NCBI GenBank assembly: GCA_024760545.1
Contig: CP060501.1
Span: 3,054,036-3,118,035 of the forward strand
Direction: 5' to 3'
DNA: 64,000 nt
DNA from: Nitrospira sp.
GTDB taxonomy: Bacteria; Nitrospirota; Nitrospiria; Nitrospirales; Nitrospiraceae
Shown: positions 7,105-26,570 of the stretch, piece after piece
Layout: every line of letters starts with the position of its first letter
Numbering within the stretch: the first letter of the stretch is position 1
Translations under genes and position numbers: made by a program
Notes under the pieces: generated by a model
Told to the model about the DNA's origin: nothing
The model's database searches: none
What the model saw: only the letters and a program-made list of their open reading frames with translations

Positions 7105-7159
7105 AGTGTGTCAACTGGTGCTTGAGGAGGCCCGGTGGAGGCTGCTAGTATCCGGCCCC

Positions 7160-7348
7160 ATGCTCAAGAAAGAGCCTGCAAGTCACCAAGGCACGATCAA
7201 CATTCGAGGCGTTCCTAAAGACTTTGTATTTCGATTGAAGCAAGCCGCTTTGGCAGAACGGCGGACTGTGAAGGCGTTTCTTCTATCTCTAGCTGAAGAG
7301 CGGATTCAGGAACTCGAAAAGAAGGGGCTGTTGCCGAAAGGGAAATAA
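7160..7348 (+). CDS. RHH-type small regulator
   Basis: A 62-residue Arc-like protein: TINIRGVPKDFVFRLKQAA, AERRTVKAFLLSLAEERIQ, and a short charged tail ending KKGLLPKGK. The start at ATG 7160 begins just before the conserved part; an ORF extension to 7106 lacks a site. It is divergent from the RHH gene at 7058 and shares its palindromic control region. The last ~30 nt of the gene are repeated at 8325 and 10139, downstream of unrelated sequence, so this gene is the likely source of the repeat. Confidence 0.65.
   Translation: MLKKEPASHQGTINIRGVPKDFVFRLKQAALAERRTVKAFLLSLAEERIQELEKKGLLPKGK
7317..7348 (+). repeat. RHH 3'-end repeat, copy A
   Basis: The last 32 nt of the RHH gene, beginning AAAAGAAGGGGCTGTTGCCG. 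It matches copies B (8325-8355) and C (10139-10168) at roughly 26 of 31 positions; the match to C extends about 18 nt further upstream. Copies A and B bracket the Imm/IHF unit, and B and C bracket the TIR gene. Confidence 0.6.
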
Positions 7349-7387: not shown

Positions 7388-7591
7388 ATGGAGGATGATC
7401 TCGTCGGCAACCTCTTTACCTTGGGGAAGGCGTGCTTGTATTTCCTTCCCTCGTTTATCGCCCTCGGGCGGGGGCTTCGCAACTGCATCACGATTGTGGT
7501 CGTGAATCTCGCGTTAGGATGGACGGTGATCGGCTGGGGGGTCGCGTTGTTCTGGTCGTTAAAGCGGGGACAGAGCGAACGCGTAGCCTGA
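7388..7591 (+). CDS. Superinfection immunity (Imm) family membrane protein
   Basis: A 67-residue protein with two hydrophobic segments. The signature YFLPSFIALGRGLRNC, then VVNLALGWTVIGWGVAL, matches the superinfection-immunity family (T4 Imm type), which in phage T4 blocks injection of related phage DNA at the inner membrane. Many bacteria carry uncharacterised homologues. AGGAAGGG precedes the ATG. It starts 40 nt after the copy-A repeat, and repeats A and B bracket it. Confidence 0.85.
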   Translation: MEDDLVGNLFTLGKACLYFLPSFIALGRGLRNCITIVVVNLALGWTVIGWGVALFWSLKRGQSERVA

Positions 7592-8136: not shown

Positions 8137-8355
8137 GCCGGTGAACAGATCATGATCTTCGGCTTTGGTAAGTTTACAGTCCGACATAAGCACGCTCGCC
8201 CAGGACGGAATCCCAGAACACGCGAAGCGATAACGATCTCAGCCCGCCGAGTGGTGACATTTAATGCGAGCAACCTTTTCAAGACGGAAATAAATTCTCC
8301 ATCGGCAGAAGGCAGGGAAGGCGGAAAAGAAGGGCTTCTGCCGAAGGGGAAGTGA
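8137..8355 (+). pseudogene. C-terminal fragment of an IHF/HU-type DNA-binding protein
   Basis: From AGEQIMIFGFGKFTVRHK to RPGRNPRTREAITISARRVV and FNASNLFKTEIN, this is the DNA-binding arm and C-terminus of an IHF/HU subunit. The N-terminal dimerisation helices are missing: upstream of 8137 the frame no longer resembles the family. After the IHF part the reading frame runs into the copy-B repeat and ends GLLPKGK, the same tail as the RHH protein at 7348. An ATG at 8152 could still start a 67-residue product, but it would lack the dimer interface. Confidence 0.75.
8325..8355 (+). repeat. RHH 3'-end repeat, copy B
   Basis: A second copy of the RHH gene end, fused in frame to the IHF fragment. 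It also forms the right arm of an inverted repeat: TCGGCAGAAG at about 8302-8311 pairs with CTTCTGCCGA at about 8335-8344, giving a possible hairpin ahead of the TIR gene. Confidence 0.6.
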
Positions 8356-8382: not shown

Positions 8383-10098
8383 ATGAGCACAATCCTGATC
8401 TCATATCGCCGCGAGGATAGTGCCGATGTCACTGGTCGAATCTACGATCGACTCATTCATGAATTTGGCCGAGCGTTGGTGTTTAAGGATGTTGATTCCA
8501 TCCCTTATGGTATCGATTTTCGAAAATATCTCGACGAGCAGGTGGCCAAGTGCGAGGTGTTCCTCGCCGTGATCGGACCGAATTGGATTAGGAAACGTGG
8601 AACCAAAGGCAAGTCTAAACTGGAGGACCCAACAGATTTCGTCCGTATAGAGGTGGAGTCAGCCCTAAAACGACAGATTCCAGTGATTCCGGTCTTGGTG
8701 AATGGGGCAGTCATACCGCCTGCTGATCGGCTCCCGACTAGCATTAGGGATCTGTCTTACCGTAACGGAATCGTAGTGCGCCACGATCCGGATTTTCATA
8801 GGGATATGGATCGCCTCGTCGCCTACCTGAAACTACCTGGTGTCATCGGTGCTTCGGGCACGACAGCTGCTCAAGCATCAATGTCCAGCCAATTACCCGC
8901 TCTAAGGGGGAATAACAGCCTGGCTGGTCTGGCGGTTTCGCCAGGCACTCTGGCTCCCGCATTCGATGCGAACGTGCAAAGCTATACCGTCAGTGTTGCC
9001 AACAATGTCGGAAGCATCAATGTCACTCCCACGCTGTCGGATCCTGCTGCAACGGTCACCGTGAATGGACAAGCCGCGATCTCCGGTCAAGCCCGTGCAA
9101 TCACCCTTAATGGCCCAGGCCATGGCACGAAGATCACGATTATCGTGACCGCCCAGAACGGCAATGACAAAACTTATCTCGTGACTGTAAGCCGCGGAGT
9201 GTCCGCCAATAACAACTTGCAAGGTCTAGCCATTTCACCGGGACCGTTGGCCCCGGCCTTCAACGCAGGCACAGTCGGATACACAGTCAACGTAGGAAGC
9301 GGCGTGACCCAATTTACGGTGACGCCGACACTGCAAGATACCGCGGCAACCATGACAGTGAATAATCAAGCCACCAACTCCGGGCAGGCTCGAACCATTC
9401 CGTTGAATGCGGCCGGATCGAGCACCTTTATCAATATTGTGGTAACCGCCCAGAATGGGGCCCAGAAAGCGTATTCCGTGAACGTCATGCGCGCCTCCTT
9501 GGACGTGAATAACAATCTGTTGGCCTTAATGATCACACCAGGCTCCATGAATCCTCCATTTGCTTCGGGAACCTTGAACTACACGGTGGATTTGGCCACT
9601 GACGTTACCGAAGTGACCGTGACGGCAACGAAGTCCGATTCGAATGCTGTGCTATCGGGCGATGTGCCCAATCAAGGACAAGCAACTATCCCGCTCGATG
9701 GGCCAGGGACAAGCAAACAAGTGTCGATCATCGTGACCGCCTCAAATGGTGTCTCAAAGACGTACGCCCTCACCGTGAATCGCGCAGCGCCTGCAAGTAA
9801 CAACAACCTGTCGGCACTGACGGTGACACCTGGGACATTAGTTCCTGCCTTTGCTGCGAGCACGACGACCTACACTGTAGAGGTTCCGCTCAGTGTTGAT
9901 AGCCTGACCGTCTCTTCGACCAAATCTGATCCGAATGCAGTGATGTCCGGGGATGTGCCGGCAGGGGCAGGAGTTGCTACAGGGCAACAGACCTTTGTGC
10001 TCACGCCACTGGTGCCGCGATCGGTATCGATCACTGTCACGGCTCTGAACGGTGACACAAAGACATATTCTGTTACCATTGTCCGCACATTGTTCTAA
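8383..10098 (+). CDS. TIR domain fused to four cadherin-like domains
   Basis: A 571-residue protein. Residues 1-150 are a TIR domain: MSTILISYRREDSADVTGRI, DVDSIPYGIDFR, FLAVIGPNWI, and DFVRIEVESAL, whose glutamates (E90, E92) lie where the NADase glutamate of enzymatic TIRs sits. Residues ~177-275, 276-373, 374-470 and 473-571 are four cadherin-like beta-sandwich repeats, each opening NN(N/S)L..L....G and ending TYxVTVxR. There is no signal peptide or membrane segment, although this repeat type is commonly found on exported proteins. Bacterial TIRs often cleave NAD+ in anti-phage defence; here the repeats may sense or bind something. It lies between repeat copies B and C, near an Imm gene, which supports a defence reading. 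Confidence 0.9.
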   Translation: MSTILISYRREDSADVTGRIYDRLIHEFGRALVFKDVDSIPYGIDFRKYLDEQVAKCEVFLAVIGPNWIRKRGTKGKSKLEDPTDFVRIEVESALKRQIPVIPVLVNGAVIPPADRLPTSIRDLSYRNGIVVRHDPDFHRDMDRLVAYLKLPGVIGASGTTAAQASMSSQLPALRGNNSLAGLAVSPGTLAPAFDANVQSYTVSVANNVGSINVTPTLSDPAATVTVNGQAAISGQARAITLNGPGHGTKITIIVTAQNGNDKTYLVTVSRGVSANNNLQGLAISPGPLAPAFNAGTVGYTVNVGSGVTQFTVTPTLQDTAATMTVNNQATNSGQARTIPLNAAGSSTFINIVVTAQNGAQKAYSVNVMRASLDVNNNLLALMITPGSMNPPFASGTLNYTVDLATDVTEVTVTATKSDSNAVLSGDVPNQGQATIPLDGPGTSKQVSIIVTASNGVSKTYALTVNRAAPASNNNLSALTVTPGTLVPAFAASTTTYTVEVPLSVDSLTVSSTKSDPNAVMSGDVPAGAGVATGQQTFVLTPLVPRSVSITVTALNGDTKTYSVTIVRTLF

Positions 10099-10120: not shown

Positions 10121-10168
10121 GGCCGATTTCAGAAGAGGAAAAGAAGGGGATTCTGCCGAAGGGAAATA
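10121..10168 (+). repeat. RHH 3'-end repeat, copy C
   Basis: A third copy. It matches copy A from GATT.CAG (about 10123) through AAAAGAAGGGG to the GAAATAG end. The reading EEEKKGILPK is still recognisable, but one G is missing near the end. It sits between the TIR stop (10098) and the next gene (10178). Confidence 0.55.
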
Positions 10169-10177
10169 GGTGGCTAC

Positions 10178-10981
10178 TTGATAGAGGAAGTACGAGACCT
10201 TCTCTTTTTTCTCGAACAGGAACAGCAGACTCTTCAAAATTCTCGCCTTCAGTGGGAACAGGAGCTAAAGCTCTTCGCAGATCTTGCACACCTATATATT
10301 AAACTTAAAACCATTACGAAGCTTTCGACCAAACATCGGCATCTCCTGGCCTCGGTAGATCTTTTTCTTTGTGCGGAAAGTAGTATGTATTCTGCGGTAT
10401 CCCATCTTCTAAGGCGAAGACTTGGGGACGCTGAGTCGGTAACGCGTCGAGCTATCGAGGAAACAGCTACTGCTTACCGGCTCTTCAAGCACCCGAATCT
10501 TTTAGAAGTCTACAGAGACGCCTATCCAATTTCCAAAGACTCCTCAAGTTCTGATTGGCGACCATCTGAACAATATCGACAAGCATTTGCGAGCGGGAAG
10601 CTATTCAGCGAGCCACCTGAATTTTGGAGCGAGCTGAAAATAGACTATGCCATGTTCAGTGTAATGGCTGTGCACGCTGGCTTGGGAACTATCACAAAGT
10701 TGGTGACAACAGATACTATGCGTACGATGCCACTCTTCGAGCCAGATGATAAAAATATCTACCGTACCTGGTATCACTTCTGTTCAATTTACTCCTCACT
10801 TCTCAAGGTCTTCGTACATATACTTCGCGGCGCGGGAAATAACGACATGATTAGGCTATTAGAGGACGAAATCGTTAGTTGGCATAACCGAGCGTCCGCT
10901 TTGCTAGAGAAGCGTGCGCCTTGGATTGCTGAGTCGACTAAGGCTCGGTGGGCTGAACAGGGTAAGAATCGTTTTGAGTAG
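10178..10981 (+). CDS. Hypothetical, all-helical protein
   Basis: A 267-residue, helix-rich protein. The segment LLASVDLFLCAESSMYSAVSHLLRRR with ESVTRRAIEETATAYRLF resembles the DUF5677-type core, but I hold this loosely. The start is taken as TTG at 10178 (AGGTGG upstream); the frame extends through the copy-C repeat to 10052, which is repeat sequence rather than protein. Codon use is visibly AT-richer than in the flanking chromosome. It follows the TIR unit on the same strand. Confidence 0.65.
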   Translation: MIEEVRDLLFFLEQEQQTLQNSRLQWEQELKLFADLAHLYIKLKTITKLSTKHRHLLASVDLFLCAESSMYSAVSHLLRRRLGDAESVTRRAIEETATAYRLFKHPNLLEVYRDAYPISKDSSSSDWRPSEQYRQAFASGKLFSEPPEFWSELKIDYAMFSVMAVHAGLGTITKLVTTDTMRTMPLFEPDDKNIYRTWYHFCSIYSSLLKVFVHILRGAGNNDMIRLLEDEIVSWHNRASALLEKRAPWIAESTKARWAEQGKNRFE

Positions 10982-12987: not shown

Positions 12988-13284
12988 TTAATTCGTTATT
13001 TGGCTATGCATTGCAGTTAATGTGTGGTTTAGCACAAACTGCAACCGAGGCAGGAGAAGACAATATTTCACCTGGGTCCCCAAAGCGTCTGATCCGTAAT
13101 CCGCATGTAGCCTATATATGAAGGTTCCGAAGAATGAACTGGAAGCAATTTCAACACCGTCGAAATCAAGTAATACCTTCTCTCCCTTGACTAATAGACG
13201 CTTCACTTTCTCGTATAATTGATCACCCTCCTCAACCGTCCCACAGTAAACACTAAGTCCCTCTGCGACCAATACTCTATGCAT
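12988..13284 (-). CDS. STAS-like (DUF4325) protein
   Basis: A 98-residue protein. LLVKGEKVLLDFDGVEIASSSFFGTFIYRL matches the core of the STAS-like DUF4325 family, where a serine near the tip of the helix can act as a phospho-acceptor in classical anti-anti-sigma factors (SSSFFG here). GGAGG precedes the ATG. The start overlaps the end of the upstream ATPase gene by 8 nt, so the two are translationally coupled and probably act together. Confidence 0.75.
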   Translation of the reverse strand: MHRVLVAEGLSVYCGTVEEGDQLYEKVKRLLVKGEKVLLDFDGVEIASSSFFGTFIYRLHADYGSDALGTQVKYCLLLPRLQFVLNHTLTAMHSQITN

Positions 13285-14167
13285 ACCGGTCCTCCTCTTG
13301 ATTGTGGAAGGTTGGCTGAAGGAGATCAGTATGAATGCATAGATTAATGGAACTACCTGGAAAAGAGAAGGGCAAAGTCATTTGCATCGTTTTCCCATCG
13401 GAAAACTGCTTCCACACCCCATCCTTCGATATTATTTCCAGGTCGCCATGGTGGATTCTCAGCCACTCGCTAAGGATGTGTAGACCTGCACCAGCATTGT
13501 TCTGGCGAGCTCTGCTGGTAACACCTGGCTGGATTGCTAATGCGACGGCTGAGGCTTCAGAATTAAGCTGAGGATACAATCGTGTGAGTGTCTCAAGGAA
13601 TCCAATACCGAAATCCGTAACAGAGATCATTAGTTGCTTTGTGCTCTGATATGCCTGTGCACAGACACAACACCCGATTAATGACTTGCTGTGATCGAAA
13701 ACATTGTAGATAATTTCCGGCAATGTAACCGTAACCATCTCCACGATTGCATAACGCGGAATATTGGAGTTGCCCACCAGCCAATTTGCAATCTGCATCG
13801 GATATGATCCCTCAAATTGATCAAGCCGACGCAACATAACGCTTTTGCTGTTTGCCCGTCGACGTAGCAGCTGACGGGGACCCCGGAAATCAAACTCCTC
13901 AAAAAACCCCTGGTCTGTAAGGTACTGGAGAGTCTCAGCCTTAGCAGGAGGAGTGAATAAAATGTCTTTGCCCCGTAAATGCAGGTCATGAATCATGGCT
14001 GCAAGCAATGTGAGTCCCAGAGGTCTAAACTGGACTGTGTTGCCGCATTCGATTCTCACTGGCTCAAAATTGATCAGAGCGGCTGTGTAGCATTGCAAGG
14101 CGAATTTATAATGAGTTATGTCCTCGGAGCAGACGTATGGAAACGGCACAAAGGAAGGAACAGTCAT
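13277..14167 (-). CDS. GHKL (histidine-kinase-like) ATPase
   Basis: A 296-residue protein. The N-terminal ~120 residues look STAS-like. The C-terminal half holds the GHKL ATPase motifs: N-box LPEIIYNVFDHS (~149-160), G1 box TDFGIGF (~184-190) and G2 box NNAGAGLHIL (~223-232). It has no dimerisation/phospho-acceptor histidine domain, so it is not a classical sensor kinase; anti-sigma-type kinases have this organisation. The next gene is a STAS-like protein, its expected partner or substrate. The pair stands against the strand of the surrounding cargo. Confidence 0.8.
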   Translation of the reverse strand: MTVPSFVPFPYVCSEDITHYKFALQCYTAALINFEPVRIECGNTVQFRPLGLTLLAAMIHDLHLRGKDILFTPPAKAETLQYLTDQGFFEEFDFRGPRQLLRRRANSKSVMLRRLDQFEGSYPMQIANWLVGNSNIPRYAIVEMVTVTLPEIIYNVFDHSKSLIGCCVCAQAYQSTKQLMISVTDFGIGFLETLTRLYPQLNSEASAVALAIQPGVTSRARQNNAGAGLHILSEWLRIHHGDLEIISKDGVWKQFSDGKTMQMTLPFSFPGSSINLCIHTDLLQPTFHNQEEDRYA

Positions 14168-23217: not shown

Positions 23218-23305
23218 TTGAGCGCCTCGCCTCCACCAAACCTCGCTTGCGCGGGCCGGCGGCTCATCCCTTATTGGTGCCGCCGGAAAGAGTCATCAAC
23301 CCGCA
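23218..23305 (-). repeat. Recombinase 3'-tail remnant T1 (gap 23152-23740)
   Basis: About 88 nt matching T2 (25.98 kb) and T3 (37.41 kb): GAGCGCCTCGCCTCCA and, further on, GCCGCCGGAAAGAGTCATCA. Read on the minus strand it is the end of a serine recombinase gene plus the spacer before the TSCPD gene. The rest of the 589-nt gap holds a minus-strand ORF of 68 codons (23264-23470, Lys-rich) that I consider a relic, and the upstream region of the next lipoprotein. Confidence 0.6.
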
Positions 23306-25978: not shown

Positions 25979-26570
25979 GGTATCCCTCGCCTCCACCAAA
26001 CCGCACTTCGTGCGTACCGGCGGCGCGTCCCTCATTGATGCCGCCGGAAAGAGTCATCAACCCACTCTGATGGGCGTCTGCCTCCCAAGCGTCGGTCAAC
26101 ACGCGGTCAAACGTCCCGGTTGCCGTGAAGGGTAGCCGGCCTTCCCGCCTCCAGTATCGGCTCACACAGAGTATGGCCGTCTAGGAGTTTTCTGAGCATC
26201 TGACGGGAGTGATCGACATGCCGCCCGAACAATGACGGGAGACTGTCCAGCTCATCACGTAAGCGCTTCGTTAGCCATTTTTCATCCAGAGACACGGTAG
26301 CGACAAGGTTTTGAAGATGCTCCAGCTTCTTGATCAGAGCTAGCTTCCGTTCAGCCTTGCGATGAAGCGGCTGCACGACGGTCGACGTCCCTGGCCGGTC
26401 GCGATTAATTCCTCAGGATGATGGCGGCGGGTCTGGATCAGAGACGGTTCGCGGAGGAAGGCTGTGTGCTGATCACGGAATCCATTCTTGTTTGGCTCGG
26501 AGCTTTTCTAACGTCTGGGCGGCCATAGAGAGCCTCATTACGGTGTCCTCACAACCACTCGTGAGAGCCC
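25979..26570 (-). pseudogene. Decayed large serine recombinase, C-terminal part
   Basis: Scattered frames on the minus strand match the window-edge recombinase: TLEKLRAKQEWIP (near 26.48 kb), then KLEHLQNLVATVSLDEKWLTKRL (26.3 kb), and FTATGTFDRVLTDAWE (26.1 kb). The last is followed by the T2 tail (GLMTLSGG) at 25983-26145. The N-terminal catalytic half is missing and the frames are broken. No other gene is seen in 25690-26850. Proposed origin: a second integrated element of the same family, now collapsed. Confidence 0.7.

Follow-up and report, generated by a model that had tools for sequence, protein, structure and literature searches.

Analysis of a 64,000-nucleotide stretch of a Nitrospira genome, hereafter the window, identified a gene on a mobile genomic island encoding TIR-Cad, a protein in which a TIR domain with a catalytic glutamate is joined to four cadherin-like domains derived from surface lipoproteins of the same genome, in a constrained reading frame and without an export signal. 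We infer that the protein would have NADase activity, bind a ligand, cluster and act in defence, and consider the chances even that it works on its own as a cytosolic, anti-invader TIR NADase whose sensor was exchanged.

The open reading frame at positions 8383-10098 on the forward strand, running from ATG to TAA with zero internal stops, encoded 571 amino acids. Pfam analysis detected TIR_2 at residues 4-126 (E 7.2e-11, above the cut-off) and four stretches of PF12733 (E 6.8e-57, 190 bits versus a cut-off of 24.2), in agreement with the preliminary description of the gene as a TIR domain followed by four cadherin-like domains. The TIR domain, a probable NADase judging from the Pfam match, an AF2 model and the match to SARM1, corresponded to residues 1-151 (8383-8835, forward strand). 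The linker of residues ~152-172 (8836-8898, forward strand), lying between the edges of the TIR and cadherin-like homologies and modelled with pLDDT <50, had no homology that could be found to the linkers of the related TIR-FGE proteins or to the lipoproteins.

In an alignment of 42 related TIR domains, E90 (codon at 8650-8652, forward strand) was invariant, as were Y8, R9, D36, W68, D85, P103 and others, and E92 was kept in at least 90% of the aligned sequences. Comparison of the family profile with solved structures matched the NAD hydrolases SARM1 and TIR-1, and E90 fell on the catalytic E642 of SARM1 when counted manually along the alignment. Both E90 and E92 had been put forward as candidate catalytic residues; the former was retained, and the latter was rejected as it does not align with E642. 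The TIR part of the AF2 model reached a pLDDT of ~90, and its top structural matches were SARM1 TIR domains (Z up to 18.1, rmsd 2.2, 137 aligned residues, 24% identity). The domain thus possesses both the TIR fold and the E642-type glutamate of TIR NADases, and NADase activity is likely on the basis of the sequence and the model. The preliminary description had made its reading depend on a catalytic glutamate in the structural model, where E90 was indeed present. The structure prediction it had proposed for both halves was less successful for the array, most of which showed pLDDT <70 in the full-length model with few relatives in the input, although one cadherin-like domain was modelled well, as an all-beta sandwich with a pLDDT of 96.5 (domain 2).

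The TIR domain occurred as a single copy in its own genome, yet was widespread in Nitrospira at 70-81% identity. In the TIR tree it was placed inside a clade of 32 rows (SH-aLRT 99), 24 of which were TIR-FGE proteins. Intact relatives nearly all ran on into an FGE-sulfatase/C-type-lectin domain (PF03781), while in a few the partner was a second TIR, a TPR-like domain or something else. The 3' ends of TIR-FGE genes resembled a template in another genome, G013 (L173:2361-2480), where it overlaps the end of a gene for a reverse transcriptase of the diversity-generating retroelement (DGR) type. In the best pairs, 19 of 23, 21 of 26 and 20 of 24 mismatches were located at A, which accounts for ~27% of the template (binomial probability of order 1e-8). 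The TIR-FGE gene of G013 itself fitted the template poorly (14 of 38 mismatches at A). As A-biased mismatches between template and variable regions are a hallmark of DGRs, the Nitrospira TIR-FGE proteins look, from their sequences, like DGR targets diversified by a retroelement. The genes with A-biased 3' ends included those at L071, L074, L111, L049 and others, the template and most of the targets lying in different genomes.

FGS/CLec proteins associated with DGRs have been proposed to be invader sensors (PMC8195603, PMC7159879, PMC10907252), and cyanobacteria have TIR-CLec proteins known to be DGR targets (PMC7517822). The joining of TIR effectors to varied sensors has precedents, as has the use of DGR-lectin sensors, and the immune reading given to the TIR domain at the outset is borne out to the extent that its mostly lectin-bearing relatives look like immune sensors. 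TIR-Cad shares with the TIR-FGE variable proteins and FGS/CLec conflict proteins a TIR family 70-81% identical, its N-terminal position and the effector-sensor layout in a single ORF, but its sensor is composed of four cadherin-like domains instead of a lectin. It was not itself a DGR variable protein, since no FGE domain was detected in it by Pfam and RVT_1 gave 0 matches both in its genome and in the same-species genome G065. Its array is accordingly without a variable region, template, reverse transcriptase or other diversification system in its own genome.

The closest relatives found for the array lie in the same genome, in a group of clustered cadherin-like proteins at L058. Each of these has an N-terminal export signal and lipobox-like cysteine (LGTSGCQD, LGFSGCQD, LSAYGCGD and LSAFGCSD in the four cluster paralogues). 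The array domains were 80-91% identical to those of the PF12733 lipoproteins lp868 and lp537, which form a set with lp558 and lp452. Domain 1 (8905-9201) and domain 2 (9202-9501) were 87% and 91% identical to lp868, amounting to 88% over the pair (86% in nucleotides). Domain 3 (9502-9792) and domain 4 (9793-10098), all four being on the forward strand, were 83% and 80% identical to lp537, and together matched its C-terminus at 82% (80% in nucleotides), domain 4 corresponding to the final lp537 domain with the same ending, IVRTLF-stop. The two pairs match different lipoproteins, and the array is thus either pieced together from lipoprotein domains or copied from a mosaic lipoprotein not itself seen, in both cases lacking the export part. 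In comparison with the four lipoproteins, TIR-Cad has the TIR domain in place of the signal peptide, the lipobox and the first domain, and is predicted to be cytosolic. The lipoprotein cluster itself (L058:4473-12645 and L062) differed between two strains of one species, with proteins of 868 and 761 amino acids; this difference suggests that the cadherin-like lipoprotein arrays change fast.

The gene is located on a 23.4-kb genomic island inserted at the 3' end of ssrA (genome coordinates C1:3053854-3077273; positions 1-23238 in the window), as identified from the empty site and the tmRNA predicted by ARAGORN. The right copy of a 14-bp direct repeat, CCTCGCCTCCACCA, was found at 23225-23238 (forward strand), and the left copy is the ssrA 3' end. 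The left end of the island and an adjoining large serine integrase/recombinase, identified by eye only, sit just outside the window. In G065 the island was absent and the site uninterrupted. A further exact copy of the 14-bp repeat was present at 25985, 2.7 kb past the island border. The island genes in the window encode a DnaB helicase, a resolvase, a ribbon-helix-helix (RHH)-type protein, a PF14373 protein, an IHF fragment, TIR-Cad, a nuclease homologue, a CitMHS transporter and a terminase small-subunit-like protein. The gene following TIR-Cad (10181-10981) matched nothing in PADLOC or NCBIfam and nothing significantly in Pfam, and is a possible partner. On the reverse strand, 12988-14167 encodes a HATPase-like protein (weak PF02518) beside a small ORF, perhaps a STAS/anti-sigma pair; its weak match to DrmA probably reflects shared ATPase similarity only.

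The preliminary description had taken a superinfection-immunity neighbour and a bracketing by repeats as signs of a defence module, and neither was supported as such. The small RHH-type gene (7157-7348, forward strand; assigned by eye, with no Pfam match) is followed by a gene for a 67-residue membrane protein of the PF14373 'superinfection immunity' family (7388-7591, forward strand; Pfam E 1.9e-16). Other Nitrospira have this pair but lack the TIR gene, and the PF14373 neighbour therefore says little about TIR-Cad. The bracketing repeats were three copies, at 7315-7347, 8322-8355 and 10137-10168, of the 3' end of the RHH-type gene encoding its EKKGLLPKGK tail. The first is the source within the gene itself (7315-7347), the second ends a fragment comprising the 3' half of an IHF/HU gene (8152-8355, forward strand; profile positions 44-90 of 90), and the third directly follows TIR-Cad on the same strand; elsewhere in the genome only two further, weaker copies were found. 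Transposon ends, att ends and integron sites were rejected as explanations of the repeats, which are copies of a gene tail. Because G065 has a different gene after the RHH-PF14373 pair, the site looks, from this comparison of sequences, like a place of cargo change. The tail copies follow unrelated genes, a pattern suggestive of cargo inserted more than once at the end of the RHH-type gene.

The exact order of domains in TIR-Cad was not found again among ~50 contig loci, 79 genomes of the genus, 295 genomes of the phylum and plasmid and phage records, in a non-exhaustive check covering TIR domains like those of the window or of G006 and the cadherin-like loci fetched. Viral contigs gave a single spurious short match, and a match to residues 1-239 in G251 was rejected as the same fusion, being a TIR protein without cadherin-like domains. 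A literature text search of partial coverage, and hence weak as evidence, retrieved no report of a bacterial TIR joined to cadherin-like domains. Two related fusions were nevertheless detected in the genus. In Nitrospira sp. Ga0074138 (G006, C29; L066:4895-6871), a 658-residue frame comprised a TIR domain, four cadherin-like domains and a partial TIR, this trailing TIR being the first part only of a member of the window's family, interrupted by a stop and followed by broken TIR and FGE pieces. In G076 (C69; L067:4331-5266), two cadherin-like domains preceded a partial TIR ended by a stop, and the frame overlapped by 4 bases the end of a PDC-S32/AbiJ_NTD4 gene (both within L067:4331-6126; PADLOC PDC-S32 E 6e-100). 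Both, like TIR-Cad, combine TIR and cadherin-like domains within a single frame of cytosolic type, but differ in domain order and in their second TIR being cut by a stop. The cadherin-like domains of the window were at most ~63% identical to those of G006 and G076, versus 80-91% to the lipoproteins of their own genome, so that the window array was taken up separately. The search for the fusion in other genomes, suggested at the outset, thus returned the exact order only once along with two relatives, and a fusion of this type was not absent from all relatives, nor was the gene broken in a close strain, G065 lacking the entire island.

The main rival is an accidental fusion of an island TIR piece with a lipoprotein gene piece, carried as a functionless passenger, which we regard as rather unlikely. 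TIR-Cad is a singleton whose TIR homology begins exactly at the ATG in a new 5' context, preceded by the truncated IHF gene and the duplicated gene tails; the sister fusions contain stops, and TIR pseudogene fragments are common in Nitrospira. Against a passenger, the 571-residue frame is open across both halves and the joint falls at a domain boundary, which argues for a workable protein, and E90 and the fold-defining residues are intact. Relative nonsynonymous rates were also low in both halves. For changes unique to the fusion in comparison with relative pairs, some of which may predate the fusion, the ratios of nonsynonymous to synonymous changes per site were 0.25 in domains 1-2, 0.26 in domains 3-4 and 0.17 in the TIR domain, inside the range of 0.09-0.30 for intact relatives. 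Read from sequence comparison, these values show purifying-type substitution in every part of the protein. Accident alone is also made less likely by the recurrence of TIR/cadherin-like fusions in the genus, although the G006 and G076 genes are partly broken.

A role outside defence, in which the array would serve as a scaffold or as a sensor of the envelope while the TIR domain would signal or make an NAD-derived messenger in ordinary physiology, appears improbable. It would fit the origin of the array in surface lipoproteins, and the cadherin-like model loosely resembled the beta-sandwich domains of periplasmic sugar sensors and surface glycan-binding proteins, the fold search giving weak matches with one only at E <0.001. 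However, the gene is an accessory island gene absent from the same-species strain, and its TIR kin in Nitrospira resemble conflict proteins in being multi-copy, in swapping partners and in mostly bearing lectins. It is very improbable that the array is still exported or membrane-associated, with the TIR domain facing the cytosol or on a receptor. The homologous arrays of its own cluster, and most others seen in Nitrospira, start with lipoprotein signals, but no signal peptide, lipobox, hydrophobic N-terminus or transmembrane stretch was found in TIR-Cad, and its peak hydropathy segment is a core strand of the TIR domain. As the signal peptide of the lipoproteins is missing, the array should be cytosolic, as had been proposed from the lack of a signal peptide. 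An assembly or annotation artefact is scarcely credible even though the exact fusion is known from one genome only, because the array domains differ by 9-20% from their donors in protein and hence are no misjoined copy, and the locus is interior to a 4.54-Mb contig, one of two in the assembly, on an island with clean borders at ssrA whose empty site is intact in the sister strain.

TIR-Cad did not belong to Thoeris. Against the curated Thoeris and type III models it scored 26.5 bits with ThcB4 (cut-off 220), the PADLOC ThsB match was partial (23.8 bits), and no ThsA-type partner was detected among the neighbouring ORFs by Pfam or PADLOC; nor did the window show any known defence gene next to it. 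The TIR fold and catalytic glutamate are common to TIR-Cad, Thoeris ThsB, SARM1/TIR-1 and SpbK of Bacillus subtilis ICEBs1, whereas the partner domains are unrelated. SpbK, whose TIR NADase becomes active when it clusters on a phage portal protein (PMC12847820), is like TIR-Cad a single TIR protein on a mobile element.

For the reading of TIR-Cad as an anti-invader NADase with an exchanged sensor, the following course may be proposed. The ancestor would have been a Nitrospira TIR-FGE protein, whose retroelement-diversified C-type lectin probably recognised invader molecules, and in this lineage four cadherin-like domains copied from surface lipoproteins of the same cell would have taken the place of the lectin. 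The array may bind a multivalent intracellular partner, such as a phage structural protein with similar beta-domains or misplaced envelope material, or alternatively may self-associate. The TIR domains would then cluster, driven by the ligand or by self-association, as in SpbK, and E90 would cleave NAD+, stopping the growth of the infected cell. Several observations count against this reading: the exact architecture was encountered once, the genes next to it in the window included none known for defence, the G006 and G076 relatives have stops in their second TIR, no promoter was recognised, a ribosome-binding site was not evident by eye, the substitution rates mix changes from before and after the fusion, and the array lacks a diversification system in its genome. 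The proposal of an unrecognised TIR defence protein is partly supported, by E90, the cytosolic sensor half and the immune-like relatives, and loses the support once drawn from the PF14373 neighbour and the repeats.

It is conceivable, though quite unlikely, that Nitrospira repeatedly recruits its own exported cadherin-like domains as cytosolic sensors or decoys for TIR NADases. If so, whole-array swaps from a fast-changing surface cluster would make new immune specificities, as an alternative to retroelement hypermutation. If TIR-Cad is functional, a bacterial TIR immune receptor would have gained a new sensor from the surface proteins of its own host. Since this TIR usually comes with a hypermutated lectin in the genus, the protein would offer a direct test of how the specificity of a TIR receptor changes, and would also test cadherin-like arrays as intracellular recognition or clustering modules, like immunoglobulin-like folds in animals.
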